In this document: one piece after another, positions 22,563-44,472 of the stretch
Layout: every line of letters begins with the position of its first letter
Numbering within the stretch: position 1 is the stretch's first letter
Source: Kineococcus sp. NBC_00420
GTDB taxonomy: Bacteria; Actinomycetota; Actinomycetes; Actinomycetales; Kineococcaceae
Length of the DNA: 64,000 bases
Direction: 5' to 3'
NCBI RefSeq assembly: GCF_036021035.1
Contig: NZ_CP107930.1
Coordinates: forward strand, 1,922,001 to 1,986,000
Position numbers and translations under genes: made by a program
Notes under the pieces: model-generated
Told to the model about the DNA's origin: nothing
Seen by the model: the letters and a program-made list of their open reading frames with translations, nothing else
Database searches by the model: none

Positions 22563-23615
22563 TCAGGTCCGGCGCGCGGTGACGACCTTCTGCAGGACGA
22601 CGAAGGCCAGCAGCACGGCGCCGATGAAGACGCGGGTGTACCAGGAGTCCAGCCCCTCGCGGGCGATGAGGACCTGGATCAGGCCGTAGACGAGAACCCC
22701 GGCCCCGGTGCCGAGGACGAACCCGACACCCCCCGAGAGCAGGGTCCCGCCGATGACGACGGCGGCGATGGCGTCGAGCTCCATGCCGATCCCGGTGAGG
22801 TTGAACCCGGACTTCGTGTACAGCGCGAAGAGGATCCCCGCGATGCCCGCGCAGGTGCCGGAGATGACGTAGACCCCGATGCGGGTGCGGGCCGGACGCA
22901 GGCCCATGAGTTCGACCGCGACGCCGCGGTCCCCGGCACCGAGGCCGTACACGCTGCGCCCGAAGCGGGTGTAGTGCAGGACGTAGACCGCGAGCAGCAG
23001 CACGGCGACGGCGATCACCATGCTGGCGTTGATCCGCCACGTCCCCCGGCCCTCACCGAACTTGATGCTCCACGACGCCAGAGCGGAGAAGGAGGGGTCG
23101 TCGATGACGAGGGAATTGGTGCTGACCACGTTGGCCAGGCCGCGGGCCAGGAACATGACGGCCAGCGACGCGATGAACGGCTGGATGTCGAAGACCTGGA
23201 CCATGACCCCGATCAGGAGCCCGCAACAGGTTCCGATGAGGACCCCCACCACCAGCACCACCGGCAACGGCGCCCCGGCGGTGAACAACTTGGCGGTGAT
23301 GAGTCCGACGAGAGCGACCACCGCTCCCACGGACAGGTCGATCCCGCCCGCGAGGATGACGAAGGTCATGCCGACGGCCAGGACGAGGAGGTAGGAGTTG
23401 TCCAGGAGCAGGTTGGAGAGCAGTCGCATGCTGAGGAAGTCGGCGCGTGCGGTGCTGTACCGCTGCTGACCCACCCCGAGCATGACGACCAGGGTCAGGA
23501 CCGTGCCGACGACGGGGAGGAACCGACGGTCGAGGCGGTCCAGGACCCGGCGGACGCGGTGCTCGCGCGGGCGGCGGGTGGCACTCGGGGGCGCAGGGGA
23601 CAGTTCGGTGCTCAT
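22563..23615 (-). CDS. yjfF: Sugar ABC transporter permease, YjfF-like
   Basis: 350-aa inner-membrane permease of the ribose/galactofuranose class. Signature stretches: NSYLLVLAVGMTFVILAGGIDLSVGAVVAL and MELDAIAAVVIGGTLLSGGVG, closely like E. coli YjfF. ATG 23615 overlaps the preceding permease stop and has GGAGG seven bases upstream. Last gene of the ytfQRT-yjfF-type operon. Confidence 0.88.
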   Translation of the reverse strand: MSTELSPAPPSATRRPREHRVRRVLDRLDRRFLPVVGTVLTLVVMLGVGQQRYSTARADFLSMRLLSNLLLDNSYLLVLAVGMTFVILAGGIDLSVGAVVALVGLITAKLFTAGAPLPVVLVVGVLIGTCCGLLIGVMVQVFDIQPFIASLAVMFLARGLANVVSTNSLVIDDPSFSALASWSIKFGEGRGTWRINASMVIAVAVLLLAVYVLHYTRFGRSVYGLGAGDRGVAVELMGLRPARTRIGVYVISGTCAGIAGILFALYTKSGFNLTGIGMELDAIAAVVIGGTLLSGGVGFVLGTGAGVLVYGLIQVLIAREGLDSWYTRVFIGAVLLAFVVLQKVVTARRT

Positions 23616-30083: not shown

Positions 30084-30971
30084 TCACCCACCCGCCATCG
30101 TGCGGGCGATGTCGGAGGCGGAGTCACCCGATCGGCGCAGGACCAACGCCACGACGCCCAGGGCCACCAGGGTCAGCAGCAGCAACAGGGTGGAGACGGC
30201 GGCGATCTCCGGTCGGAGACCGGCCCGCAGGGCCGAGAACACGTAGACCGGCCACGGACTCGCCCCGGGCAGCGACACGAAGCTGGCGACGATCGTGTTG
30301 TCGAGGCTCAACGTGAAGGCCATCAACCCACCCGCGAGGACCCCCGGTGCGGCCAGCGGCAGCGTGACGTCGCGGAACCTGCGCCACGGGGTGGCGTAGA
30401 GGTCCGCGGCGGCCTCCTCCAGCCGGGAGTCCAGCCCCGAGACCCGGGCCCGCACGATGAAGGTGACGACGGCCGTGGAGAGCACCGAGTGCGCGATGAC
30501 GAGCCGGGCTATCCCGTCGCCGAACAACGGCAACCCGGCCTCGGTGTTCAGCGAGACGAACCACCCCAGCAAGGAGATCGCGTCCATGATCTCGGGGGTC
30601 ACGAGGGTGAGGCCCAGCAACAGGGTGAGCAGCGCCGTCCAGCGCCCCGCACGACGCGCCAGCGCGAGGCCCGCCAGCGATCCGATGACCGCCGACAGCA
30701 CCGCGGCGCCCAGCGCCGACTCCAGCGACGTCACGACGGCGGCCCGGATCACCGGGCGGTCCAGTCCCGCGACGTAGGCGTCGAACCCCGCCCCCTGCCA
30801 GGAGGTCAGCAACCGCCCGGTGTTGAAGGAGTAGACGACGATGACGACGATCGGCAGGAACAGAAACGCCAGGACGAGCACGCCCCAGATCCCCAGCACC
30901 GTCGCCGACCCCGACCGGCGCCGCCGCCGCGAGGGAGGAACCCCGACCTCCGCCGGCCGCTCGTCGATCAC
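30084..30971 (-). CDS. Polyamine-type ABC transporter permease (PotC-like)
   Basis: 295 aa, six hydrophobic segments, MetI-type permease. The EAA loop is EEAAADLYATPWRRFRDVTLPLAAPGVLAGG, which contacts the ATPase. YSFNTGR near the first periplasmic loop is typical of PotC. GTG 30971 overlaps the PotB stop (GTGA). Last gene of the five-gene amine import operon. Confidence 0.9.
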   Translation of the reverse strand: MIDERPAEVGVPPSRRRRRSGSATVLGIWGVLVLAFLFLPIVVIVVYSFNTGRLLTSWQGAGFDAYVAGLDRPVIRAAVVTSLESALGAAVLSAVIGSLAGLALARRAGRWTALLTLLLGLTLVTPEIMDAISLLGWFVSLNTEAGLPLFGDGIARLVIAHSVLSTAVVTFIVRARVSGLDSRLEEAAADLYATPWRRFRDVTLPLAAPGVLAGGLMAFTLSLDNTIVASFVSLPGASPWPVYVFSALRAGLRPEIAAVSTLLLLLTLVALGVVALVLRRSGDSASDIARTMAGG

Positions 30972-31861
30972 GCCGTCACCCCCTCGAGGTCGACCCGGCG
31001 CGAGGCGCGCACGACGCGGCGCACCACGAGCAGCACGGCCGCCGTCAGGAGGACGGTGCCCCCCGTGAACAGCACGAGGACCACGGCCATCGCCGACCCG
31101 AGGGCCCAGTTCTGCGCGGTCTGGAACTGGCTCGCGACCAGCTGCCCGACCATGTTCCCCTTCGCCCCGCCCAGGACGGTCGCGGTGACGTAGTCACCCA
31201 TCAGCGGGACGAACACCAGCAGGCAACCCGACGCGATCCCGGGGAACGCCAGGGGCAGGGTGACGTCGGCGAACGTGCGCCACCGCCCGGCCCCGAGGTC
31301 CCGGCTCGCCTCGCGCAGGGCCTGACTCGTCCGCTCCAGGGCGACGTAGACGGGCAGCAGCATGAGCGGCAGGTAGTTGTAGACGACCCCCAGCTGGACG
31401 GCGCCGCGGGTGTAGAGGACGTCCAGCGGACCACCGCCGATCGCCTGCAGCGCGGTCGAGAACGGTCCTTCCGGGGAGAGCGCGATCTGCCACCCCAACG
31501 TCCGGACGAGGAAGTTCGTCCAGAACGGCACCAGGACGAGCGCCAGCAGCAGACCGCGCCAGCGGGCGGGGACCTTCACCGCGAGCCAGTACGCGAACGG
31601 CAGCGCGACGACGAGGCAGATCAGCGTGCCGACGACACCGATGCGCAGGGTGTTCCAGAACGTCCGCAGGAACGACCCGCCCAGCGCCTCGCCGTAGCGG
31701 TCGAGGGACAGGACGTCGTTGGCGTGGGTTCCGAACAGCCCGGGTTTGTAGCCGAAGCTGTACCAGACGACCAGGGCGACGGGCGCGACGAAGAACCCGA
31801 GCAGGAACACCCAGGCAGGCAGGGCCAGCGCCCCGTGGGGGGCCCGGAGCCGGCGCAGCAT
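30968..31861 (-). CDS. Polyamine-type ABC transporter permease (PotB-like)
   Basis: 297 aa. First TM WVFLLGFFVAPVALVVWYSF, EAA loop REASRDLGAGRWRTFADVTLPLAFPGIASG, and the PotB-like VPLMGDYVTATVLGGAKGNMVG. ATG 31861 shares its A with the preceding TGA (TGATG). Partner channel subunit to the PotC-like protein. Confidence 0.9.
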   Translation of the reverse strand: MLRRLRAPHGALALPAWVFLLGFFVAPVALVVWYSFGYKPGLFGTHANDVLSLDRYGEALGGSFLRTFWNTLRIGVVGTLICLVVALPFAYWLAVKVPARWRGLLLALVLVPFWTNFLVRTLGWQIALSPEGPFSTALQAIGGGPLDVLYTRGAVQLGVVYNYLPLMLLPVYVALERTSQALREASRDLGAGRWRTFADVTLPLAFPGIASGCLLVFVPLMGDYVTATVLGGAKGNMVGQLVASQFQTAQNWALGSAMAVVLVLFTGGTVLLTAAVLLVVRRVVRASRRVDLEGVTA

Positions 31862-33036
31862 CAGGACCCGGCCGCCGCGCGGATCGCGTCGAGGATGGCG
31901 ACGATGCTGTCGTGCTTCTCGGTGATCCGGCTCGCCGTCAACCGGTCCACGACGTCCTGGCTGGGGAAGACGAGTTCCGGACGGTCGAGCCCGGCCGCCG
32001 TGGCCTTGGCCTCGATGTCGGTGAGCGCGGTGTTGTAGCCGATGTAGAGGACGTCCTTGACGGAGTTGTCGACGTCGAGCATGAAGTCGATGAAGGCGTA
32101 GGCCGCGTCGGGGTGCTCCGCCCCGGCCGTGATGCACCAGTTGTCCATCCAGAGGTTCGCCGTCGGCGTCGCGTACACGAACTTCCACTTGTCCGGCTCC
32201 TCGGAACCGTCCATGCCCAGGCGGGCGTCACCGTTCCAGCACTGCATGAGGGCGTACGTCGACTGGGCGATCGCGCTGCCACCGGGGTTGGACTCGAAAC
32301 CCTTGAGGTTCGGGGCCAGGTTCGCGACCATCCACTCCTTGCAGGCCGCGATCTCCGCGTCGTCGGTGGTGTTCGGGTCGATCCCGTTCGCCGCGAAGTA
32401 CATCGAGGTGACCTCCCAGGGGTCCTCGAGGATGGAGGTGTTCCCCTTGCCCTCCTTCTGCGCGGCGTCGAGGAAGTCGGCCCAGGAGACGAGGTCCCGG
32501 CTGATCACGCTGGTGTCGTAGACGAACCCCGTGGTGCCCCAGTCCTTCGGCACCGAGTACTTGTTGTCCGGGTCCCAGCTCTGCCCGAGGTAGGCCGGGT
32601 CGAGGTTGCCGAAGTTCTTCAGCTTGCCGTGGTCGAGTTCGGCCAGCAGGCCGTTGCTGGACATCTGCGGGATGTAGACCCCCGTCGGCACGACAATGTC
32701 GTACCCGCTGGCCCCGTTGGCGGCGACCAGCTTCGCGAGCATCTCCTCGTTGGACCCGTAGCTGTCGACCTGCAATCGCGGACCGGTCTCCCCGAAGGCC
32801 TTCAGGACGTCCGGATCGTCGTAGTCCGCCCAGCTGTAGACGTTCAGGCTGTCCTCGACCTTCCCGTCGACCGAGGTGCCGGCACTGCCGGAACTGTTCC
32901 CACCGCAGGCGGCCAGGGCGGCGCTCGACGCCAGCGCGGTCAGGACGCTGCGGCGGCGGGCGAGGGTCCGCCCGACGCGTTCCGCGGTCGCGGTCGGGAC
33001 GAGGACGGACGCGGCAGGTCGATCGGTGCGGGACAC
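31861..33036 (-). CDS. Polyamine-type substrate-binding lipoprotein (PotD-like)
   Basis: 391 aa. Signal with SVLTALASSAALAAC lipobox, then the PotD-type start DSLNVYSWADYDDPDVLKAF. Residues SWADY and later DNWCITAGAEHPDAAYAFIDFMLD fit the polyamine-binding family. GTG 33036 has GGAGC six bases upstream. Binds the amine outside the membrane and delivers it to the two permeases. Exact ligand unknown. Confidence 0.9.
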   Translation of the reverse strand: MSRTDRPAASVLVPTATAERVGRTLARRRSVLTALASSAALAACGGNSSGSAGTSVDGKVEDSLNVYSWADYDDPDVLKAFGETGPRLQVDSYGSNEEMLAKLVAANGASGYDIVVPTGVYIPQMSSNGLLAELDHGKLKNFGNLDPAYLGQSWDPDNKYSVPKDWGTTGFVYDTSVISRDLVSWADFLDAAQKEGKGNTSILEDPWEVTSMYFAANGIDPNTTDDAEIAACKEWMVANLAPNLKGFESNPGGSAIAQSTYALMQCWNGDARLGMDGSEEPDKWKFVYATPTANLWMDNWCITAGAEHPDAAYAFIDFMLDVDNSVKDVLYIGYNTALTDIEAKATAAGLDRPELVFPSQDVVDRLTASRITEKHDSIVAILDAIRAAAGS

Positions 33037-33062
33037 GGGGGCTCCAGGTTCTGGGATCGGTC

Positions 33063-34193
33063 TCAGGCGGGGAAGACGTGGACGTTCTCGGGCGCGAAAC
33101 CGCACCACACCTCGACCCCGACCTCGGCGGTGGCGGGTCCGTCAGCCCCGCGGGGAGCACGCGCGAGGAGCTCGATCCCCGAAGCGGTCACGACGACGCG
33201 CTGGACCACGTCGCCGAGGTGGGCGACCCCGGCCAGGCGCCCACGGACCCGGTTCGGGGTCGTGACCGGCTCGGTGGTGCCGACGTGCAGCGACTCCGGC
33301 CGCACCGCGGCCAGCACCGCCGTCCCGGCGGCGAGGTCGCCCGCGCGGGAGCTCGACAGCGTCGCGTCGGCGCAGTGCAGGACGCCGGGCTGGACGACCG
33401 TCGCGGGCAGGAAGTTCTGCTTGCCGATGAACCCGGCGACGAAGGCGCTCACCGGTTCGGCGTAGATGTCCTCGGGTGCCCCGAACTGCTGGATGCGCCC
33501 GTCGAGCATGACCGCGATGCGGTCGCTCATCGAGAGCGCCTCCTCCTGGTCGTGGGTGACGAACACGAACGTCGTCCCCAGCGAGCTCTGCAGGAGCTTC
33601 AGCTCGACCTGCATCTCCTCCCGCAGCTTGCGGTCCAGCGCCGAGAGGGGTTCGTCCAGCAGCAGCACCTGCGGCCGGTTGACCAGGGCCCGGGCGAGGG
33701 CGACCCGCTGCTGCTGCCCGCCGGAGAGCGCGGCCGGGGCCCGGGTGGCGAAGGCGCTCATGCGCACCATCTCCAGCGCCTCGCCGACGCGGCGGCTGAT
33801 CTCGTCCTTGCCGGCCCGGCCGGCTCGGCCGCCCGCCCGGCGCTGACGCAGCCCGTAGGCGACGTTCTCGGCGACGCTCATGTGCGGGAACAGCGCGTAG
33901 GCCTGGAACACGGTGTTGACGGGTCGCCGGTGCGCGGGGAGCCCCAGCACGGACGACCCGGCGATGGCGATGTCCCCCTCGTCGGGGTCCTCGAAACCGG
34001 CGAGCATCCGCAGCAGGGTCGTCTTCCCGCACCCGGAGGGCCCCAGCAGCGAGAGGAACTCCCCCGACTCCACGGCCAGGTCGACCCCGGCGACGGCGGT
34101 CGCGGTGCCGAAGCGCTTGACGATGCCGGTGAGGGTGACGGATCCTCCGCCGACCCCCGTGAGGGACGCCGTGTCCGGGGCCAGGACGCTCAC
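33063..34193 (-). CDS. Polyamine-type ABC transporter ATPase (PotA-like)
   Basis: 376 aa. Walker [12 protein letters not shown]-loop [12 protein letters not shown], signature [15 protein letters not shown], Walker [14 protein letters not shown]-loop VTHDQEE, and a C-terminal TOBE domain. GTG 34193 overlaps the amidohydrolase stop (GTGA). Powers uptake. A 26-bp gap precedes the binding protein, the loosest junction in the operon. Confidence 0.92.
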
Positions 34194-35875
34194 AGGACTC
34201 CTCCGCTGGTCAGGTTCTTCTCGTGCACGGGACGGCCCCCGACGAAGGTGTGGTCGACGGCGACCTCCCAGAGGTCGACGGCGTCGACGGCGAAGGGGTC
34301 GGTGCTGCAGACGGCGAGGTCCGCCACCGCACCCGGTGCGATCGACCCGGCTCCGGTGTGGCGGTTGATCCACGCCGATCCGGCGGTGTAGGCGGTGAGG
34401 GCCTGCGTGAGGGTGAGGGCCTGGTCGGGCAGGAACGGTTCCCCCGGTTCCCCCGGTGGGGTGCGGTTCACGGCGACGTGGATCGCCTGCCAGGGATCGG
34501 GGGTGGACACGGGCCAGTCCGAGCCCATGACCAACCGCGCCCCGGCCTGCAGGAACCCCGCGAAGGGGTACTGCCAGGAACTGCGTTCGGGGCCCAGGAA
34601 GGGGACGGTGAGTTCCGACATCTGCGCGTCGTCGCAGGCCCAGAGGGCCTGCGCGTTGGCGGCGACGTCGAGCGCGGCGAACCGCGCGACGTCGTCGGGG
34701 TGGACGACCTGCAGGTGCGCGAGGTGGTGGCGACCGGTGCCCGCGGCCCGGCGGGCCGCGTCGACCGCGTCGAGGGCGTCGCGCACGGCCCGGTCGCCGA
34801 TGACGTGCACGTGGACGTCGAAACCCGCGGCGTCGAGCGCCGGGACGGCGGCCAGCAGGAGGTCCCGGTCGAGGTAGGACAACCCCTGTTCACCGGTGCT
34901 GCAGCCGCACCCGTCGAGGTAGGGCGCCAGCATCGAGGCCGTGCGGTTCTCCGCGACGCCGTCCAGCATGATCTTGATGCTCGTGGTGACGAACCGGTCC
35001 GACCCGAGTTCCGCCGTCCGCGCGGCGACGGCCTCGCGGTGGGCGGCGAACCCCGCGACCAGGGCGTCGACGTCGGCGACGGTGTGCCCGCGGGGCCACC
35101 AGAGCGCCCCCACGACACGGGCCGTCAGGGTTCCGGCGGCCACGGCGTCGAGGTAGACGGGAGTCGTGTCCTCGTGGCCGGCGTAGGCACCGACGATGGC
35201 GTCCTGCCACCCGGTCACGCCGACGGAGTGGAGGTAGCGCTGGCCCTCCGCGAGGCCGGCAGCGAGCTGGTCGCGGGTCACCGGGGACAGGTGCCGGGAG
35301 ACGAGGTCCATCGCGCCCTCGTGCAGGGTTCCCGTCGGAGTACCGTCCGGGTCGCGTTCGATCCGACCGTCGGTCGGGTCGGGGGTGTGGGCGTCGACAC
35401 CGGCCAGTTCGAGGGCCCGCGAGTTCACCCAGGCCCCGTGGTGGTCGCGGTTCAGCAGGAACACGGGCCGGTCGGGCACCACCCGGTCGAGGTCCTCGCG
35501 CCGCGGGGTCCCGCCGGGGAAGTCGGCCATCGCCCAGCCCCCGCCGGAGATCCACTCCCCCGGGTTCTGCGCGGCGAAATCGGCGACCCGCCGCAACGCG
35601 CCGTCCGGTCCCGACGTCGTCGTCAGGTCGCACCCCAGCCGTTCCAGCCCGCCCATGACGGGGTGGACGTGGGCGTCGGTGAAACCGGGCAGGACGAGCC
35701 GCCCCGCGAGGTCGAGGGTTTCCGCCGCCGCTCCGACCGCCGCCCGCACGTCGGCGTCGCTGCCGACGGCGACGACCCGTCCCCCCGAGACGGCTACCGC
35801 AGTGGCCGTCTCGTGGAGCCCGGTCCCGGTGAAGACCCGGCCCGAGTGCAGGACGAGTTCTGCGCTGTCCCTCAT
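34190..35875 (-). CDS. Amidohydrolase (YtcJ-like, amidohydro_3 family)
   Basis: 561 aa metal-dependent hydrolase. Motifs in order: [17 protein letters not shown] (HxH), [39 protein letters not shown] and [22 protein letters not shown]. First gene of the operon with the Pot-like importer, so it probably hydrolyses an N-acylated or amide-linked amine brought in by that system (inference). ATG 35875 lies exactly seven bases after a TACGTT -10 with no SD, indicating a leaderless mRNA. Confidence 0.9.
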
Positions 35876-35882
35876 GAACCGG

Positions 35883-35911
35883 AACGTACAAGCAACTCGT
35901 CGCTGTGACAA
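35883..35911 (-). promoter_or_regulatory. Leaderless promoter of the amidohydrolase-pot operon
   Basis: On the minus strand TTGTCA (35911-35906), 17-bp spacer, TACGTT (35888-35883). Seven bases separate the -10 from ATG 35875, so transcription should start at the A of the start codon. Confidence 0.7.
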
Positions 35912-35957
35912 CGGATTCGATGTTTCGATCGTGTTGCCACCACGGATTCTGCTCCCC
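35906..35957. promoter_or_regulatory. Two tandem copies of the amine-cluster operator
   Basis: GACAACGGATTC (35907-35918) and CACCACGGATTC (35938-35949) are matching parts of a 21-bp site seen as a perfect dyad at 42864. The two 21-bp frames start 31 bp apart (35906, 35937), on the same face of the helix. The first covers the -35 hexamer. Confidence 0.55.
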
Positions 35958-36053
35958 TCGTCGCGATCGGGAACTCGCCGACACCGGGCGGAGTTTCACC
36001 TCGCCGTCGACGGACTTCCGTGGCGGACCTCGGACGAAGGTTGCGCGGAGGCG

Positions 36054-37415
36054 TCAGTGCGCGGTGAGGCGGGCCAGGGCGCCGGAGAGCGGTGTGGGAC
36101 GGTTCAGGACGTTCTCCGCGGCGTCGGCGGCGCGCGCGACGAGCAGGCCGGCGTTCACGCCGAGCCAACGCAGGGGTTCCGGTTCCCACCGTGGCGAGGT
36201 GTGGTTGAACCAGGGCAACCGCACGAGGTCGGAACCGGTCCCGGTCACGGCGTCGGCGAGCGTCCGCCCCGCGAGGTTCGTCGTCGCGACCCCGTCGCCG
36301 ACGTACCCGCCGGCACTCCCGAGCCCGGAGGCCGGGTCGTGGCGGACCGCGGCGTGCCAGTCCCGGGAGATCCCGAGCGGGCCGCCCCAGGCGTGGGTGA
36401 AGCGCGCCCCGGCCACGGCGGGGAACATGTCGGCGAGCGTGCTCCGCAGCCTCCGGAACACGGTCTCGTCCCCGTCGAACTCCGGGCGCACGGAGGAACC
36501 GAAGTGGTACGGCGCACCCCGTCCGCCGAACACCAGCCGGTCGTCGGCGGTGCGCTGGCCGTAGACGATCACGTGGCGGAAGTCGGAGAAGGTCTCCCCG
36601 CCGGACAGTCCGACCTCGTCCCAGAACGGTGCGGGCAGCGGTTCCGTCGCCACCATGAGCGAGTACACCGGGACGACCTCGCGGGCCGCCCCCGGCAGTC
36701 GCGGGGTCCACCCCTCCGTCGCGCGCAGCACGTGCCGCGCCCGGACGACCCCGCGGTCGGTGCGGACCGCACCGGGCGAGAGGTCGAGGGCCCGGGTGTG
36801 CTCGACGATGCGCCCGCCGCGGCGTTCGAGCGCCGCGGCCAGGCCGCGGGCCAGTCGCAACGGGTGGATGCGGGCGCAGTCGGGGGTGTGCGTCGCTCCG
36901 AGGGCGCGGGTCATGCCGACGGTCTTGCGGGTCTCCTCCGCGTCGAGCAGGCGCAGGCCCTCGGGCGACCCGCCGGCCTCGTCCTCGGCGACCTCGGCCG
37001 TGGCGCGGGCGAGCTGCGGAGCGCTGCGGGCGACGACGACGGTCCCTCCGCGCCGCCAGTGGCAGTCGATCCCCTCCTCCCGCACGACCCGCTCGACCTC
37101 GTCGAGGGTTCCGCGCATCGCGGTGCGCATCGCCTGCGCCGCGACCGGTCCGTGGTCACGGGTCATCCGCTCGACGCCCTGCGGCAACAGGGCGGAACAC
37201 CAGCCGCCGTTGCGACCGCTGGCCCCGAACGCCACCGTCTCGGCCTCCACGACGAGGACCTGCAGGGTCGGGTCGCGGCGCAGCAGGTAGTAGGCGGTCC
37301 ACAGGCCGGTGTACCCCGCGCCCACGACGCACACGTCGACCTCGGTGTCCCCGTCCAACGGGGGCCGTTCCGGGGCCTCCGGGGCGGTGTCGGCCCAGAG
37401 CGAGCGGACCCTCAC
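36054..37415 (-). CDS. FAD-dependent amine oxidoreductase (PuuB/DAO family)
   Basis: 453 aa. FAD dinucleotide motif VDVCVVGAGYTGLWTAYYLLRRDP near residue 26, ASGRNGGWCSALLPQG, and a C-terminal GYVGDGVATTNLAGRTLAD typical of gamma-glutamylputrescine oxidase relatives. Oxidises a primary or secondary amine to an imine, giving aldehyde and H2O2 (family knowledge). GTG 37415 overlaps the aminotransferase stop, so it is co-translated with it. A paralogue lies at 39431. Confidence 0.9.
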   Translation of the reverse strand: MRVRSLWADTAPEAPERPPLDGDTEVDVCVVGAGYTGLWTAYYLLRRDPTLQVLVVEAETVAFGASGRNGGWCSALLPQGVERMTRDHGPVAAQAMRTAMRGTLDEVERVVREEGIDCHWRRGGTVVVARSAPQLARATAEVAEDEAGGSPEGLRLLDAEETRKTVGMTRALGATHTPDCARIHPLRLARGLAAALERRGGRIVEHTRALDLSPGAVRTDRGVVRARHVLRATEGWTPRLPGAAREVVPVYSLMVATEPLPAPFWDEVGLSGGETFSDFRHVIVYGQRTADDRLVFGGRGAPYHFGSSVRPEFDGDETVFRRLRSTLADMFPAVAGARFTHAWGGPLGISRDWHAAVRHDPASGLGSAGGYVGDGVATTNLAGRTLADAVTGTGSDLVRLPWFNHTSPRWEPEPLRWLGVNAGLLVARAADAAENVLNRPTPLSGALARLTAH

Positions 37416-38806
37416 AGGCGCTTCCCCGCCTCGTCGAGGACCGAGCGCAGGCGCCGCTCGATCTCGTCGAAGTCGCTCGGACCGATGATCAGCGGGGGCG
37501 CCAGCTGGATGACGGGGTCGCCGCGGTCGTCGGCCCGGCAGTAGAGGCCGGCCTCCCACAACGAGGGGGAGATGAACCCCCGCAGCAACCGCTCGGCCTC
37601 GGCGTCGTCGAACGTCTCCCGGGTCTGGCGGTCCTTCACCAGCTCGATCCCGTAGAAGAACCCTGCCCCGCGCACGTCCCCCACGATCGGCAGGTCCAGC
37701 AGCTTCTCCAGGGTGGAGCGGAAGAGCGGTGCGTTCTCGTGGACGTGCTGGACGAGTCCCTCGCGTTCGAAGATGTCGAGGTTGGCCATCGCGACGGCCG
37801 CCGACACCGGGTGCCCACCGAAGGTGTAGCCGTGGGCGAAGCTGTCCTCGTCGCGGCGGAAGGGTTCGAAGATGCGGTCCGAGGCGATGACCGCCCCCAG
37901 CGGGGAGTACCCGCTGGTGAGTCCCTTGGCACAAGTGATCATGTCGGGGACGTAGTCGAAGTCCTTGCAGGCGAACAACTCCCCGATCCGGCCGAACGCG
38001 CAGATCGTCTCGTCGCTGACCAGCAGGACGTCGTGCTCGTCGCAGATCTCACGCAGACGCTCGAAGTACCCGGGTGGCGGCGGGAAGCACCCACCGGCGT
38101 TCTGCACGGGTTCCACGAACACCGCGGCGACGGTGTCGGGGCCCTCGAACTCGATGGCCTCCCCCACCCGGTCGGCGGCCCAGCGCCCGAACGCCTTCGC
38201 ATCGTCGCGCAGGTGCTCCGGAGCCCGGTAGGAGTTCGTGTTCGGCACCCGGAAGGTGCCGGGCACCAGGGGTTCGAACTCCGCCTTCACCCCCGGGATC
38301 CCCGTGATGGACAGCGCGCCGTGCGTGGTGCCGTGGTAGGCGATCGAACGGCTGACGACCTTGTGCTTGCCGGGCTTGCCGACGCGTTTGAAGTAGGCCT
38401 TGGCCAGTTTCCAGGCCGTCTCGACGGCCTCGCTGCCGGACGTGGTGAAGAACACCCGGTCGAGGTCACCGGGTGCCTCGTGGGCCAGGCGCTCGGCGAG
38501 GTCGACGGCCGCCGGGTGCGCGTAGGACCACAGCGGGAAGAAACCCAGCGTCGAGGCCTGCCGGGCGGCGGCCTCGGCGAGTTCGGTGCGACCGTGCCCG
38601 ACCTGGACGGTGAACAACCCGGCGAGGCCGTCGATGTACTCGCGGCCGTGCTGGTCCCAGATCCGCGCGCCCTCGCCGCGGACGATCATCGGAACCTCCT
38701 CGCCCCGCTCGTAGGGGGCGTGGCGGGTGAAGTGCATCCACAGGTGGTCGCGGGCGGCGGCGGAGCGCTCCGTGCCGCGCGGGGTCGTCGCGGGGAGGCT
38801 GGACAT
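37412..38806 (-). CDS. Class III PLP aminotransferase (putrescine/amine-pyruvate type)
   Basis: 464 aa. PLP lysine in MITCAKGLTSGYSPLGAV, preceded by DETICAFGRIG (Asp contacting the PLP ring nitrogen) and TTSGSEAVETAWKLAKAY. The MHFTRHAPYE N-terminus is typical of the SpuC-type omega-transaminases that act on putrescine or beta-alanine. ATG 38806 stands six bases after a TAGTCT -10 with no SD: probably leaderless. Moves the amino group to pyruvate or a similar acceptor. Confidence 0.92.
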   Translation of the reverse strand: MSSLPATTPRGTERSAAARDHLWMHFTRHAPYERGEEVPMIVRGEGARIWDQHGREYIDGLAGLFTVQVGHGRTELAEAAARQASTLGFFPLWSYAHPAAVDLAERLAHEAPGDLDRVFFTTSGSEAVETAWKLAKAYFKRVGKPGKHKVVSRSIAYHGTTHGALSITGIPGVKAEFEPLVPGTFRVPNTNSYRAPEHLRDDAKAFGRWAADRVGEAIEFEGPDTVAAVFVEPVQNAGGCFPPPPGYFERLREICDEHDVLLVSDETICAFGRIGELFACKDFDYVPDMITCAKGLTSGYSPLGAVIASDRIFEPFRRDEDSFAHGYTFGGHPVSAAVAMANLDIFEREGLVQHVHENAPLFRSTLEKLLDLPIVGDVRGAGFFYGIELVKDRQTRETFDDAEAERLLRGFISPSLWEAGLYCRADDRGDPVIQLAPPLIIGPSDFDEIERRLRSVLDEAGKRL

Positions 38807-38812
38807 GCCCGG

Positions 38813-38856
38813 AGACTAGGCGCTCAGCCCGGCTCCGACAAGGGATTCAGTCGTCG
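38813..38856 (-). promoter_or_regulatory. Leaderless promoter and operator of the aminotransferase operon
   Basis: Minus strand: TTGTCG (38841-38836), 17-bp spacer, TAGTCT (38818-38813), then six bases to ATG 38806. The plus strand at 38836-38856 carries the amine-cluster operator copy (GACAAGGGATTC core) covering the -35. A GATTC/GAATC inverted repeat spans 38844-38860. Confidence 0.65.
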
Positions 38857-38881
38857 AATCGGAGATGAGCGACGGATCCCG

Positions 38882-39349
38882 TCAGCGAGTACCCCAGTTG
38901 TAGAGCTGTTTGCGCAGCTTGAGGTAGACGAAGGTCTCGGTCGCGACCACGCCGGGGATGGCCCGGATCTTGGCGTTGATGAGCTCGAGCAGGCCGTCGT
39001 CGTCCTCGCAGACGACCTCGACGAGGATGTCGAAGGAGCCGGCCGTCACCACGACGTAGTCGATCTGGGCCAGCTCGGCGAGGCGGTCCGCGACGACGCG
39101 GGTGTCCCCCTCGGCGCGGATGCCGATCATCGCCTGCCGGGCGAAACCGACCTGGACCGGGTCGGTGACGGCGACGATCTGCATGACCCCACCGTCGAGG
39201 AGGCGCTGCACCCGCTGACGCACCGCCGCCTCGGACAACCCCACGGCCTTCCCGATCGCCGCGTAGGACATCCGTCCGTCCTCCTGCAGGACCTCGATGA
39301 TCCGCTTGGAGACGTCGTCGAGAGCGGGGGCGGGAAGGCGGCTGGACAC
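38882..39349 (-). CDS. Lrp/AsnC-family regulator
   Basis: 155 aa. HTH DDVSKRIIEVLQEDGRMSYAAIGKAVGLSEAAVRQRVQRLLDGG, then a RAM effector domain (DYVVVTAGSFDILVEVVCEDDDGLLELI). Lies between the aminotransferase operon and a divergent FAD oxidoreductase, and is the only regulator inside the amine cluster, so it is the best candidate for the shared operator. GTG 39349 is six bases after TAGACT with CTGACC 17 bp further up: probably leaderless. Confidence 0.93.
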   Translation of the reverse strand: MSSRLPAPALDDVSKRIIEVLQEDGRMSYAAIGKAVGLSEAAVRQRVQRLLDGGVMQIVAVTDPVQVGFARQAMIGIRAEGDTRVVADRLAELAQIDYVVVTAGSFDILVEVVCEDDDGLLELINAKIRAIPGVVATETFVYLKLRKQLYNWGTR

Positions 39350-39355
39350 CGGGTG

Positions 39356-39384
39356 AGTCTACGGGCCACACCCTGCACGGTCAG
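39356..39384 (-). promoter_or_regulatory. Leaderless promoter of the Lrp/AsnC gene
   Basis: CTGACC (39384-39379), 17-bp spacer, TAGACT (39361-39356), six bases to GTG 39349; no SD. Confidence 0.55.
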
Positions 39385-39394
39385 GGGTTCCCCC

Positions 39395-39423
39395 TTGTCC
39401 GACCGGCCGGGGAACGGTAGAAC
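39395..39423 (+). promoter_or_regulatory. Leaderless promoter of the plus-strand FAD oxidoreductase
   Basis: TTGTCC (39395-39400), 17-bp spacer, TAGAAC (39418-39423), seven bases to GTG 39431. A GGGTTCC stretch just upstream weakly resembles the right half of the amine-cluster operator. Confidence 0.5.
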
Positions 39424-39430
39424 TCCCGAG

Positions 39431-40828
39431 GTGCCGTTCCTCTCGATGAGTTCCCCGGCCGTCGACGACGCTCTGCGCCACGCCGCGAGCACCCCCTTCT
39501 GGCTGGACGACCCCGGTCGCCCGGACCCGGAACCCGCCCTGCGCGGGAACTCGACGGCCGAACTCGTCGTCGTCGGCGGCGGCTTCACCGGGCTGTGGAC
39601 GGCGTTGCGCGCCAAGGAACGCGACCCCGACCGCAACGTGCTGCTCCTGGAAGGGGCGTGGACGGGCTGGGCGGCGTCGGGTCGCAACGGCGGGTTCGTC
39701 TCGGCGAGCCTCACCCACGGGCGCAGCAACGGGGAACTCCACCTGCCCGACGAGGTGGACCGGCTCGACGAACTCGGGCTCGCGAACCTCGACGCCCTCG
39801 GCAAGTCCGTCGCACAGTACGGCTGGGTCTGCGACTACGAACGCACCGGTGGCCTGTCGGTGGCGACCGAGCCGTACCAGGTCGACGAGCTGCGGGGGCA
39901 GGACGGTTTCCTCGACACCGCGGCCGTCCGGGACCAGGTGAACTCCCCCACCTACCTGGCCGGGGTCTGGACCCCCGAGGACACCGCCCTGGTGAACCCG
40001 GCCCGCCTGGTCTGGGAGCTGAAGCGGACCTGCCTCGACCTCGGGGTCCGGATCGCCGAGAACACCCCGGTGCGGGCGATCCGCTCCAACCGGTCGGGGG
40101 TGTCGGTTCAGACGACGTCGGGAACCGTGCGGGCCCGCCGGGTGGCGTTGGCCACCAACGTCTTCCCGGCCCTGCTCCGGCGCTACCGGCTGCACACCAT
40201 CCCGGTCTACGACTACGCCCTGGTCACCGAACCCCTCTCCACCGCCCAGCTCGCGGAGATCGGCTGGCAGAACCGGCAGGGCATCGACGACCTCGGCAAC
40301 CGGTTCCACTACTACCGGTTGACCGCCGACGACCGCATCCTGTTCGGCGGTTTCGACGCCGTCTACCACTACGGACGGTCGCTGTCCTCGGAGCACGACC
40401 AGAACCCGGAGTCGTTCCGGACGCTGGCCTCGCACTTCCAGCAGACGTTCCCGCAGCTCGAGGGGCTGGGGTTCACCCACGCCTGGGGTGGGGCGATCGA
40501 CACCTGCACGCGGTTCTTCCCGTTCTTCGGCACGGCCCACGACGGCCGCGTCGCGCACGTCGCCGGCTACACGGGCCTCGGGGTCGGCATGACGCGGTTC
40601 GCCGCGGACGTCCTGCTCGACCTGCTCGCCGCCGACGAGCAGGGCCCCACCGAGCTCACCGAACTCGAACTCGTCCGGCGCACGCCCGTCCCGTTCCCGC
40701 CGGAACCCCTCGCCTGGGCCGGGGTGGAGGCGACGACCCTGTCGTTGGCCCACGCCGACCGGCACGAGGGTCAGCGCAACGTGTGGTTGCGGGCCCTCGA
40801 CCGGTTCGGTCTCGGCTTCGACTCCTGA
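39431..40828 (+). CDS. FAD-dependent amine oxidoreductase (PuuB/DAO family), second copy
   Basis: 465 aa. FAD motif AELVVVGGGFTGLWTALRAKERDPDRNVLLLE, then ASGRNGGFVSASLTHG, and C-terminal HVAGYTGLGVGMTRFAADVL. Same family as the 36054 gene but clearly diverged, so the two probably act on different amines. GTG 39431 is preferred because of the promoter placed seven bases before it; ATG 39446 is an alternative. Converges tightly (11 bp) with the copper amine oxidase. Confidence 0.9.
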   Translation: MPFLSMSSPAVDDALRHAASTPFWLDDPGRPDPEPALRGNSTAELVVVGGGFTGLWTALRAKERDPDRNVLLLEGAWTGWAASGRNGGFVSASLTHGRSNGELHLPDEVDRLDELGLANLDALGKSVAQYGWVCDYERTGGLSVATEPYQVDELRGQDGFLDTAAVRDQVNSPTYLAGVWTPEDTALVNPARLVWELKRTCLDLGVRIAENTPVRAIRSNRSGVSVQTTSGTVRARRVALATNVFPALLRRYRLHTIPVYDYALVTEPLSTAQLAEIGWQNRQGIDDLGNRFHYYRLTADDRILFGGFDAVYHYGRSLSSEHDQNPESFRTLASHFQQTFPQLEGLGFTHAWGGAIDTCTRFFPFFGTAHDGRVAHVAGYTGLGVGMTRFAADVLLDLLAADEQGPTELTELELVRRTPVPFPPEPLAWAGVEATTLSLAHADRHEGQRNVWLRALDRFGLGFDS

Positions 40829-40839
40829 ACCCCGACGGC

Positions 40840-42765
40840 TCAGGGTTTGCCGGTGGCGGGCGGGTGGCAGTGCCCGGACGGGCTCCGCGGCAGGTCGAGG
40901 GTGGGGTTGCGGTCGAAGAACCCCGACGGGGTCAGCGAGAACGAGACGACGTCCACGGGCATGACCGGCCAGTCCTCGGGACGGGGAACGTGGTGGATGC
41001 CGAAGACGTGCCAGAGCACGACGTCGGTGTCCACCAGCGGTTCGTCGTCGGCGGTCCAGCGGGTCATCCCGAGGTCCTCGGAACTCTGCGTCGGGTGGTC
41101 ACCGGCCGGCCACAGCTCGTCGTCGTGGTGGCGGGTGACCCACACGTCGTGCCCGATGACGGGGGCCCGCAGGAACTGCGGCGCATCGGGTGCGAACAGG
41201 TGCGGCAACGCGTTCGGGGTGTGCAGGGCGTAAGCCGTCGGGGTCCCCAGGGAGTTCCGCCGGTCGGAACTCACGACCTTCCAGACCCGCTGGCGCTGCC
41301 AGTCGACGTCGCGGCCCGCCTCGCGCTCGGAACGGACCGGTGTCGCGGTCGTCGCGAGCGCGAGCCCGTGCGGGTTGTCCGGGCCGGTCGCCACGACGTG
41401 GGTGTCGACCTCGTGCACCGTGTTCCGCCGGCCGTCGACGTCGAGGTCGAGGCGGGCGACGAGGAAGTGCTGGTGGATCGGGGCGTAGGTCCGCTGGTCG
41501 ACGAGGGTTCCCGTCGACGGGGTGGCGGCCCCCTCCGGCAACGGGGTCGTCACCATGATCCCGGTCGCTCGCACCTCGCACTCGATCGTGCCGTCGAGGT
41601 AGAGCCGCCAGTAGACGAGGTACTCGTAGTTCGCGACGGTCGCGTGGAAGGAGACGACCATCCGTCGCGACCGGCGGACCTCCGCGCCGGCGTTCTCGTC
41701 GACGTGCTTCCACAGGACGCCGTCGTCCTCCTCGTGCAGGCAGATCGCCTGCGGCACGGAGTACGGCTCCCCCCGGGAGTCGGAGAGGACCGCGTCGAGG
41801 TAGCGGATCTCCCCGAGGCAGTCGCAGCCCAGTTCGAGCGAGGTCGTCATGTACCCGAGGCCCCACTCGCCGATGTCGTAGGCCGTGCGGCGGCGGTGGT
41901 CGAAGCTCGCGTCGCGGTAGGGCACGACCATCTCGGCGAAGGACAGGCGGTAGCCGATCTCGCGTCGCCCGCTGCCGTCGTCCCAGGCGAGCTGGTGCAG
42001 GACGAGCCCCTCGCGGTGGGTGAAGCCGAGCCGCAACGACCACTGCGCCCAGCGGAGCTCCCCGTCGTCGGAGATCGTGAACGACGGGCCGTCCGGTTGG
42101 GTGATCTCCAGGGGCTGCAACGGTTCCCGCGGGACGAGTCCGGGGACGAGTTCGGGCACGTACTCCCCCATCACGGGGGCCGCCGGCGCCGCGACGTCCT
42201 CGTCGACGGACAGCAGTTCGAACGTGTTCACGTCGACGACGAACTTGAGCCCGCTCACGGGGTGGGCGTAGGGGTTCCCGTTCGGGGTCTCGCGCACCCA
42301 GACGTCGACCCACCCGAGGCGGCGGTCGCGCCACTGCGGGGGCATGACGGCCGCGCCGTAGGTCCAGGTGTCGAGCAGGACCAGGGACAGGTCGGTGATG
42401 CCCCGCGCCGCGAGCGCCGCGATCACGCGGGGTTCCGCGATGAGCGCCTCGGCGACCTCGTGGAACTCGTCGAGGGTGAAGTTCGGCGTGATCCCGGGCA
42501 GGGGCTCGAACCGTTCGACCACCCCGCCCTCGAGCTCGACCAGCACGTCGTAGGTGCGGTTGTCGGCGCGGTCCCAGACCGTGGAGCGCGCCCGGCGCTC
42601 GACGGGGTCACCGGGCTCCCAGGCCAGCACCCGTTCCTTCGGCGGTTCCGCCAGCACGACCCCGGCGAAGCGCATCGAGGGGGTCAGGCGGCTCTCGGCG
42701 CGGAGCACGTCGAGGTTGCGGCGGAACTCCTCCTCGCGGAGGGGGGTGAGCGGGTGCGCAGGCAC
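40840..42765 (-). CDS. Copper-containing primary-amine oxidase
   Basis: 641 aa, normal length for bacterial Cu amine oxidases. The topaquinone tyrosine lies in TVANYEYLVYW (N-Y-E/D-Y consensus); copper ligands include the HxH of YAPIHQHFLVARLDLDVDG and a later C-terminal His; the catalytic base Asp is in AYDIGEWGLGYM. Converts primary amines (phenethylamine, tyramine, histamine or putrescine) to aldehydes with H2O2 and NH3. GTG 42765 has AGGAGG eight bases upstream. Diverges from the APC permease. Confidence 0.93.
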   Translation of the reverse strand: MPAHPLTPLREEEFRRNLDVLRAESRLTPSMRFAGVVLAEPPKERVLAWEPGDPVERRARSTVWDRADNRTYDVLVELEGGVVERFEPLPGITPNFTLDEFHEVAEALIAEPRVIAALAARGITDLSLVLLDTWTYGAAVMPPQWRDRRLGWVDVWVRETPNGNPYAHPVSGLKFVVDVNTFELLSVDEDVAAPAAPVMGEYVPELVPGLVPREPLQPLEITQPDGPSFTISDDGELRWAQWSLRLGFTHREGLVLHQLAWDDGSGRREIGYRLSFAEMVVPYRDASFDHRRRTAYDIGEWGLGYMTTSLELGCDCLGEIRYLDAVLSDSRGEPYSVPQAICLHEEDDGVLWKHVDENAGAEVRRSRRMVVSFHATVANYEYLVYWRLYLDGTIECEVRATGIMVTTPLPEGAATPSTGTLVDQRTYAPIHQHFLVARLDLDVDGRRNTVHEVDTHVVATGPDNPHGLALATTATPVRSEREAGRDVDWQRQRVWKVVSSDRRNSLGTPTAYALHTPNALPHLFAPDAPQFLRAPVIGHDVWVTRHHDDELWPAGDHPTQSSEDLGMTRWTADDEPLVDTDVVLWHVFGIHHVPRPEDWPVMPVDVVSFSLTPSGFFDRNPTLDLPRSPSGHCHPPATGKP

Positions 42766-42799
42766 GTCGGGGTCCTCCTGGGCGGGGCGTCGGAGCCAC

Positions 42800-42828
42800 A
42801 GTGTGACCGCATCCCGCACCCCCTACAA
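42800..42828 (-). promoter_or_regulatory. Candidate promoter of the copper amine oxidase
   Basis: Minus strand TTGTAG (42828-42823), 17-bp spacer, CACACT (42805-42800). Leaves a leader of about 30 bases that contains the SD. Confidence 0.35.
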
Positions 42829-42863
42829 GCTCGACCGGCGTTCTCCGTCGCGTGCCTCCCGGT

Positions 42864-42906
42864 TCACCACGGATTCCGTGGTGAGACCCCCTGGGACTGC
42901 TAGTGT
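42864..42906 (+). promoter_or_regulatory. Perfect-dyad operator and promoter of the APC permease
   Basis: Arms TCACCACGG (42864-42872) and CCGTGGTGA (42876-42884) flank ATT, a perfect 9-bp inverted repeat. The right arm covers the -35 position (GTGGTG 42878-42883), 17 bp before TAGTGT (42901-42906). This is the most symmetric copy of the site also found at 35906, 35937 and 38836. Confidence 0.65.
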
Positions 42907-42945: not shown

Positions 42946-44472
42946 GTGGCAGCAACCGACCACCCCACCGCCGCACCCTCCGGGAAGGGCCTGCAGTCCG
43001 GCGCCCTGGGGTTGTGGGGCAACACCGTCATCGGCCTCGGCGCGACGGCACCGGCCTACAGCCTGGCGGCGACGCTGGGGTACGTGGTGCTCGCGGTGCA
43101 CGACAAGGCCCCGGCGATGTTCCTGGTCGCGTTCGTCCCGATGCTGCTGGTCGCGATCGCCTACCGCGAGCTGAACCGCGCCGCTCCGGACTGCGGGACG
43201 ACGTTCACCTGGGGCACCAAGGCGTTCGGGCCGTGGGTCGGGTGGATGGGCGGCTGGGGGGTCGCGGTGTCCGCGATCATCGTGCTCGCCAACGTCGCGG
43301 AGATCTCCGCGGTCTACACGCTGCGCCTGCTCGGCCTGGACGCCGCGTCGGAGAACCTGTTCGTCCGGGTCGGCCTCGGCCTGGCGTTCATCGTCGGGAT
43401 GACCTGGGTCAGCTACCGCGGGATCACCATCTCCGAGCGGATCCAGAACGTGCTGATCCTCGTGCAGTTCGCGGTGCTGGGGATCATCTCGATCGGCGCC
43501 CTGTACCTGGTCTACTCCGGCGGGGCGGGCGCCCAGGCGGTGCACCCGTCGTGGGACTGGTTCAGCCCCTTCGGCGTGAGCGGTTCGGCGCTGGCCGAAG
43601 CCGTGATCCTCTGCATCTTCATCTACTGGGGCTGGGACGCCTGCCTCGCGGTGAGCGAGGAGACGAAGGACGCCGACCGGACCCCCGGACGGGCGGCGCT
43701 GCTCGCGACGGTGATCCTCGTCGTGACCTACGTCCTGGTGGCCGTGGCGGTGCAGGCCTACGCCGGTTTCGGGACGAGCGGCATCGGGCTGGCGAACGAG
43801 GAGAACGCCGACGACGTCCTCACCCTGCTCGGCGACCCGGTCGGCGGGGCGGTGATGTCGGGGTTGCTGCTGTTCACGGTCGCGATCTCGGCGGCCTCCT
43901 CGACCCAGACGACCATCCTGCCGACGGCGCGCGGGACGTTGTCGATGGCCGTCTACGGCGCTCTACCGCAACGGTTCGCGAAGGTGCACCCGAAGTTCAG
44001 GACGCCGTCCTTCGGGACGGTGGTGATGGGGGCCGCGGCCGTCGCGTTCTACCTCGTCCTCAGCCTGGTGAGCCAGAACGCCCTGCAGGACTCGATAGCC
44101 TCGCTGGGGCTGGCCGTCGCCTTCTACTACGGCATCACGGCGTTCGCCTGCGTCTGGTACTTCCGCCGCACCCTGAACCGGTCCGCCCGGGACTTCCTGC
44201 TGCGGGGTCTGCTGCCCGCGCTCGGCGGGATCGCGATGCTCTGGGCCTTCGTCCAGAGCTGCGTGGACATGCTCGCCCCGGACTACGGCTACACCCAGTT
44301 CGGCCCGCTCGGCGGGGTGTTCGTCATCGGCGTCGGCATGCTCGTGCTGGGCGTCCCGCTGATGCTGCTCTGCGCGACACGGCTGCGCGCGTTCTTCCGG
44401 GGCGAGACCCTCGACGCGGACACCCCGATCCTCGTCCCGGAGACCGGGGAGCCCCCCATCGGCGGCCTCTGA
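42946..44472 (+). CDS. APC-family amino acid/amine permease
   Basis: 508 aa, about 12 TM segments. N-terminal GALGLWGNTVIGLGATAPAYSLAATLGYVV and the conserved TM3 region REL-rich loop then WGTKAFGPWVGWMGGW; an SEETKDADRTPGRAAL loop follows TM6. The group includes putrescine and GABA permeases, and context beside the amine oxidase supports an amine substrate. GTG 42946 follows AAGGAG. Confidence 0.9.
   Translation: MAATDHPTAAPSGKGLQSGALGLWGNTVIGLGATAPAYSLAATLGYVVLAVHDKAPAMFLVAFVPMLLVAIAYRELNRAAPDCGTTFTWGTKAFGPWVGWMGGWGVAVSAIIVLANVAEISAVYTLRLLGLDAASENLFVRVGLGLAFIVGMTWVSYRGITISERIQNVLILVQFAVLGIISIGALYLVYSGGAGAQAVHPSWDWFSPFGVSGSALAEAVILCIFIYWGWDACLAVSEETKDADRTPGRAALLATVILVVTYVLVAVAVQAYAGFGTSGIGLANEENADDVLTLLGDPVGGAVMSGLLLFTVAISAASSTQTTILPTARGTLSMAVYGALPQRFAKVHPKFRTPSFGTVVMGAAAVAFYLVLSLVSQNALQDSIASLGLAVAFYYGITAFACVWYFRRTLNRSARDFLLRGLLPALGGIAMLWAFVQSCVDMLAPDYGYTQFGPLGGVFVIGVGMLVLGVPLMLLCATRLRAFFRGETLDADTPILVPETGEPPIGGL

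Follow-up and report, generated by a model that had tools for sequence, protein, structure and literature searches.

Three pairs of predicted operators at an amine gene cluster of Kineococcus sp. NBC_00420, part of a probable, widely shared Lrp regulon

A cluster of amine genes lies within the 64,000-nucleotide stretch of Kineococcus sp. NBC_00420 analysed here (the window; contig NZ_CP107930.1, positions 1,922,001 to 1,986,000), and 21-bp dyad sites overlap three of its promoters. The finding is real, and there is good support for its interpretation: the sites form three predicted operator pairs and would belong to an Lrp regulon that is widely shared. Judged from sequence comparisons, the dyads are very probably the operators of the Lrp/AsnC-family regulator encoded at 38882-39349. 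An earlier note on this DNA had proposed that one regulator, most simply the 38882 protein, controls the importer, oxidase/transaminase and permease transcripts. This proposal is well supported by the conservation of the sites, by the way in which the pair tracks the Lrp gene and by the null result at paralogous loci.

Paired dyads at three promoters

The site TCACCACGGATTCCGTGGTGA at 42864-42884 (plus strand, permease promoter) is a perfect dyad of odd length, with 21 of 21 positions matching as counted in the sequence; its arms can be read as 10 bp, TCACCACGGA and TCCGTGGTGA, with a single T between them. Identity to this site was 14/21 at 35906-35926 and 13/21 at both 35937-35957 and 38836-38856, and GGATTC was present on the plus strand in all four. 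The earlier note had described four copies of one site, and all four were found where it placed them, with the same match counts. Because 38836 and 42864 also have a weaker second site at 31 bp (a half site in the case of 42864), three operator pairs are a better reading than four single copies, the predicted unit being a pair of dyads. The spacing is exactly 31 bp three times (35906/35937, 38836/38867 and 42833/42864), the last two with weak distal sites.

At the amidohydrolase/importer promoter, the predicted proximal dyad (35906..35926, minus strand) reads GAAACATCGAATCCGTTGTCA toward the gene and holds the -35 box in its right arm, and the predicted distal dyad (35937..35957, minus strand) lies 31 bp upstream. 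At the transaminase promoter, the predicted proximal dyad (38836..38856, minus strand) reads CGACGACTGAATCCCTTGTCG toward the gene; the predicted distal dyad, 31 bp upstream at 38867..38887 (minus strand), overlaps the end of the Lrp gene and is part of the genome's best match to the pair model described below. The distal partner of the permease site is a half-conserved predicted operator at 42833..42853 (plus strand), 31 bp away between the divergent amine oxidase and permease genes.

Promoter boxes were identified by eye. The core promoters read from the sequence were TTGTCA-17-TACGTT for the amidohydrolase (35883..35911, minus strand), TTGTCG-17-TAGTCT for the transaminase-oxidase run (38813..38841, minus strand) and GTGGTG-17-TAGTGT for the permease (42878..42906, plus strand). 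The claim that the copies at 35906, 38836 and 42864 overlap a -35 box, with the -10 box 17 bp further on, agrees with these boxes, GTGGTG being a poor -35. The amidohydrolase and transaminase transcripts are probably leaderless, since the ATG codons at 35875 and 38806 follow the -10 boxes by only 7 and 6 bp, respectively. On the minus strand at 42801-42829, next to the distal 42833 site, TTGTAG-17-CACACT was read by eye as a possible promoter of the amine oxidase; from its position, the pair may therefore serve both divergent promoters. A dyad-like stretch, GGGGTTCCCCCTTGTCC, covers the -35 region of the second oxidoreductase at about 39384-39400, and three genus loci (L033-L035) carry GGAACCCCTTG or a similar sequence there; it was not counted as a site, having no GAWTC core.

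Judged by letter identity alone, the partial copies are unimpressive, and it is conservation that carries them. Within the 64 kb of this DNA (GC 72%), 82 places reach at least 13/21 identity to the perfect site and 12 reach 14. Because 13/21 is so common in the window, identity to the 42864 site was dropped as a criterion. When GGATTC in register was required in addition to at least 13 matches, six places remained, whereas 60 Markov-1 simulations gave 1.68 on average and never more than 4; two of the six (3820 and 22420) lie outside the four sites of the earlier note. The perfect site itself is unequalled, with no occurrence at up to 3 mismatches expected (100 shuffles).

Conservation of the site and of its spacing

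The comparison covered twenty neighbourhoods, of which eight belong to the genus and twelve to other members of the order. Lrp orthologues with 82-92% identity were present in seven other genomes of the genus, one of which (G008) has two. Conservation in orthologous promoters, the check that the earlier note had suggested, was observed for all three promoter types within the genus, and also upstream of Lrp orthologues in other actinobacterial families. At the amidohydrolase promoter, GAATCCGTTGT and the GTAC-TT of the -10 box were identical in 6/6 aligned sequences. Between amine oxidase and permease, the halves CCGTCG (at 42833) and TCCG were identical in 8/8, as was the CTG-TAG of the permease -10. 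The gap between the Lrp and transaminase genes contained the site in L033, L035 and L036 and a copy one base shorter in L034, while in L031 and L032 the site was upstream of the Lrp gene instead of the transaminase gene. The genus consensus is a longer dyad than that of the earlier note, roughly GACGACGGAWTCCGTCGTC.

The two Lrp copies of G008 (loci L033 and L037) are about 90% and 86% identical to that of the window. One is accompanied by the transaminase, the oxidoreductases and the importer, and the other by the amine oxidase and the permease; the window's cluster is split in this genome, each half with its own regulator copy.

A symmetric matrix (the genus matrix) was built from 15 sites: three in the window, 11 in relatives of the genus and one in another family of the order. 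The test set was the best 80 of 586 public actinobacterial loci, found via two conserved peptides, with Lrp orthologues of 69-81% identity. At a score of 12, 46 of the 80 loci had a site between 20 and 160 bp upstream of the Lrp start, where such sites were 94 times as dense as in the remainder of these loci. With 200 symmetric column-permuted matrices, whose thresholds were matched to 60 background hits, such sites were found in 2.2 loci on average and 20 at most. For 55 loci the best site scored 10 or more; within 80 bp of it, the highest-scoring second site was exactly 31 bp away in 32 (0.8 expected) and 32 bp away in 6. Good-scoring pairs were present in Cellulomonas, Agromyces, Embleya, Actinacidiphila, Actinomadura, Curtobacterium and Mycolicibacterium, considering the 31-bp spacing only. 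Several species each of Mycolicibacterium, Curtobacterium and Leucobacter are among the loci, which are therefore not phylogenetically independent, and nominal probabilities make the case look stronger than it is.

A third site at 62-63 bp was visible in the average of the other loci. Within the window, 35968, 38898 and 42802 were rejected as third sites, their scores being far below zero with the matrix trained outside the genus (see below). Matches to the matrix also recurred at about +145 and +403 from the Lrp start in loci L081-L160; these lie within the Lrp coding sequence and probably reflect conserved codons rather than operators.

Sites were also present at other genes of these loci. 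Eight loci from mycobacteria or Williamsia contain an APC relative with 46% identity or more; in six of them a site at a score of 14 was present within 137 bp upstream of such a relative (L115, L121, L133, L138, L141 and L145; two at a relative of 66-69% identity and four at one of 46-47%), and L094 and L112 had none at that score; the higher score of two matrices was taken, one of which had been retrained on these loci. In an Actinacidiphila locus (L150), the aldehyde dehydrogenase gene is directly upstream of the Lrp gene and divergent from it, and a strong pair lies two genes past it, at the start of a gene for a solute-binding protein.

The window was then scanned with a non-genus matrix, started from the genus matrix and retrained on 106 sites in 71 loci outside the genus. 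Over the 64 kb, the ranks were 42864 first, 38836 second, 35906 third, 23105 fourth, 22420 fifth and 35937 sixth. The fourth, TGACGAGGGAATTGGTGCTGA at 23105-23125 (score 14.8), is apparently inside a gene and likely a chance match. A pair model of 56 columns was derived from 40 non-genus promoters of Lrp genes. In the 5.43-Mb genome, where 150 of 228 candidates were scored, it gave three matches at E up to 10, all in the window: 38837-38882 on both strands (E 0.005 and 0.057), the best of the genome, and 42844-42883 (E 0.017). These fall only at the 38836 and 42864 promoters; the third promoter is absent from the genome-scan matches and gave E 0.028 (35907-35949) in a scan of the window only. 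Because all three matches of the genome scan fall there, close pairs are confined to the amine cluster in the host genome as far as the scan reaches.

As for single sites, 93 places in the host genome differ by at most one mismatch from GGAWTCCSTKGTS, compared with 14 for a reversed control pattern. Thirty of the 93 were scored as loci, and four high scorers outside the cluster were inspected. Three (L052, L056 and L066) lie inside open frames, and the fourth (L065) is where a gene probably starts; none is put forward as a further operon.

Probable assignment of the sites to the Lrp/AsnC regulator

The presence of the pair followed that of the Lrp gene. Among 39 genomes, the host included, a pair at E 0.1 was found in 14 of 20 with an Lrp orthologue and in none of 19 without one; within the genus the counts were 8/8 and 0/3. 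A sample of 196 genomes of the class was scanned with stricter filters, 28 candidates per genome being scored and the Lrp and pair sets being taken as the same genomes. Here, 87 of the 122 genomes with Lrp (E 1e-40) had the pair, as did 3 of the 74 lacking it. Lrp was present in every one of the 76 genomes whose pair reached E 0.01. The best pair of these 76 was within 300 bp of the Lrp start in 42 and within 40 kb in 24 more.

The leading alternative is that the dyads are operators of another regulator of the amine genes, for example of TetR, GntR or MarR type or a paralogous Lrp, with the Lrp gene merely one of its targets. Site conservation alone names no protein, regulator genes can be targets of others, and the host genome has 10 further Lrp-type matches. 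Around these ten genes, no site above 12 was found in stretches of 901 bp, nor was one found at the host's second class III transaminase or second copper amine oxidase locus (highest score across all paralogous loci, 11.9). The recognition-helix stretch SEAAVRQRV of the 38882 protein was invariant in 18/18 aligned sequences and was found in 0/6 of the alignable paralogues of the host genome, four of the ten having given no alignment. In many families the Lrp gene itself carries the site, the occurrence of the pair follows that of Lrp, and 31-bp pairing is a habit of Lrp proteins. We therefore consider control by another regulator improbable.

A further explanation needs no regulator: the promoters would have converged on the -35 element of a single sigma factor, TTGTC or TTGCC plus the bases upstream of it, and this would account for the repeated letters. 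In its favour, the proximal dyad overlaps the -35 box of all three window promoters with its right arm, and among 40 aligned Lrp promoters this arm contains TTG in 26. Promoter convergence leaves unexplained, however, why the sites are symmetric and have a left arm, why one copy is perfect over 21 bp, why another dyad lies 31 bp upstream in 32/55 loci and why the genome scan gave no other match to the pair model; it is hardly credible. Equally hard to sustain is the idea that only the perfect 42864 dyad is an operator and the partial copies are chance resemblances, for although 82 window places equal their 13/21 by identity, the non-genus matrix ranks 38836 and 35906 directly after it, both are kept in orthologous promoters, and the best pair match of the whole genome is at 38837-38882.

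Several observations weigh against the assignment to the 38882 protein. The pair model was trained at promoters of Lrp genes, so part of its co-occurrence with Lrp is built in. No pair at E 0.1 was found in 35 of the 122 class genomes with Lrp, and three genomes without Lrp have one; of the 76 best pairs, nine were on another contig than Lrp and one was 515 kb away. At the genus-matrix score of 12, 34 of the 80 loci had no site upstream of Lrp. The genus members without Lrp (G003, G007 and G010) also have no amine oxidase (E 1e-40) and no close transaminase orthologue, so that the site is gone with the whole cluster and not with the regulator alone. In another genus of the same family (G011, Lrp of 66% identity), no recognisable site was found near Lrp, the transaminase or the amine oxidase. 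With the non-genus matrix, the window's own Lrp promoter has no good site, and the distal sites are weak, scoring 2.2 at 38867 (12.1 with the genus matrix) and a poor -6.7 at 42833 (-2.3 with the better of two matrices).

Gene cluster, proposed action and known relatives

The 38882 regulator (minus strand, 155 amino acids) has an AsnC-type N-terminal helix-turn-helix (PF13404, 61.4 bits, cut-off 27) and a C-terminal RAM ligand-binding domain (PF01037, 52.4 bits, cut-off 25; PF22482, 59.1 bits, cut-off 24.4); by gene order it is of the EpuRII/SCO5656 type. It is adjoined by a class III aminotransferase (37412..38806, minus strand, NF005102 above cut-off), and a transaminase relative starts 0.4-1.1 kb past the Lrp start in 77 of the 80 actinobacterial loci. 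Downstream of the transaminase is an FAD-dependent oxidoreductase (DAO, 36054..37412, minus strand). The amidohydrolase (Amidohydro_3, 34190..35875, minus strand) is the first gene of a run with the ABC importer genes: an ATPase whose start is not fixed (33063..34310), a PotD/PotF-like solute-binding protein that scored below NCBIfam cut-offs (31861..33108) and two permeases (30084..31870, with genes at 30084-30971 and 30968-31870), all on the minus strand. On the other side of the Lrp gene are a second FAD-dependent oxidoreductase (DAO, 39446..40828, plus strand), a copper primary-amine oxidase (40840..42774, minus strand, NF008559 above cut-off) and an APC-type amino acid/amine permease (42946..44472, plus strand).

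We propose that the 38882 protein would bind the paired dyads at the amidohydrolase/importer, transaminase/oxidase and permease promoters. Because the promoter-proximal dyad takes in the -35 box at all three, the ligand-free protein should block RNA polymerase, occlusion being the simplest action. An amine-derived or amino-acid ligand would relieve the block or convert it to activation through the distal dyad, which could serve cooperativity or activation. Judged from the family, an octamer may wrap the DNA. Lrp family members are described as binding dyads as dimers, with archaeal sites two or three helical turns apart (PMC2995911), and a periodicity of 30-31 bp is among those reported for Lrp-type sites (PMC8707732). 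For BarR, a regulator of an aminotransferase gene, octameric DNA wrapping also seems to apply (PMC10201364). The 31-bp spacing in the window and in the other loci fits the family trait of dyads two or three helical turns apart. A wider proposal has two parts: the 31-bp tandem dyad, often with the -35 box built into its proximal half, would be the operator generally used by an amine-sensing Lrp that is widespread in actinobacteria, with one logo from Streptomycetaceae to mycobacteria to Microbacteriaceae, and in the host genome a few octamers would hold the three paired operators over 7 kb in a shared nucleoprotein complex, so that the importer, transaminase and divergent oxidase/permease promoters switch together. 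We regard this as speculative and unlikely as a whole.

The 38882 protein is likely the counterpart of EpuRII (SCO5656), described in PMC8998196 and PMC9397018 as an Lrp/AsnC regulator of polyamine genes in Streptomyces coelicolor; the likeness is drawn from gene order in the Actinacidiphila loci alone. SCO5656 is listed between the polyamine aminotransferase SCO5655 and the aldehyde dehydrogenase SCO5657, with the polyamine-binding lipoprotein SCO5658 next (PMC9397018), and in electrophoretic mobility shift assays several promoters were shifted by EpuRII, including its own and the glnA3, sco5676 and sco5977 promoters (PMC8998196, PMC9397018); the sco5676 shift is credited to EpuRI in one place and to EpuRII in another (PMC8998196). 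Both proteins belong to the Lrp/AsnC family and are encoded beside a class III polyamine-type aminotransferase. In two Actinacidiphila loci (L147 and L150), the Lrp orthologue is followed by the transaminase, and L150 also has the aldehyde dehydrogenase, a gene found in all three loci tested for it (L100, L115 and L150). In contrast, the Lrp gene of the window is flanked by the transaminase and an FAD oxidoreductase with no aldehyde dehydrogenase, and the cluster adds a copper amine oxidase, two FAD oxidoreductases and an amidohydrolase. EpuRII is also reported to bind its own promoter, and other genera have sites at the Lrp gene, whereas the window's Lrp promoter has no good site.

No operator for an EpuRII-type regulator was found in the literature searched, which left out most subscription papers and was in part available as excerpts, and absence from print is not established by this. 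What that literature offered was, for a single Streptomyces protein, mobility shifts with entire promoter fragments. The operator is widely shared and apparently undescribed so far, the biology of the Lrp protein being otherwise ordinary. With the operator model, the genes controlled by the actinobacterial polyamine/amine Lrp could be predicted from sequence across many genera, and the model gives an exact prediction that is cheap to examine at the bench: two dyads, 31 bp apart, with essential GAWTC cores.

BarR of Sulfolobales (PMC4977709, PMC10201364) offers a second comparison. It is an Lrp-type octamer on several regularly spaced semi-palindromic sites and controls the adjacent aminotransferase gene together with its own. 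It differs in being archaeal, in its 15-bp sites with spacers of 15-17 or 27-29 bp, in its ligand, beta-alanine, and in activating the aminotransferase gene.

Sequence matches of the 38882 protein included PDB 2gqq and 1ri7/2e1c, entries for E. coli Lrp and Pyrococcus FL11. E. coli Lrp is a global regulator, whereas the close predicted sites of the 38882 protein are confined to one cluster in the host genome as far as the scan reaches. According to PMC2995911, PMC8707732 and PMC10201364, E. coli Lrp and Pyrococcus FL11 have other site sequences and resemble the arrangement proposed here in the binding of dimers to dyads two or three turns apart and in octamers that wrap DNA.

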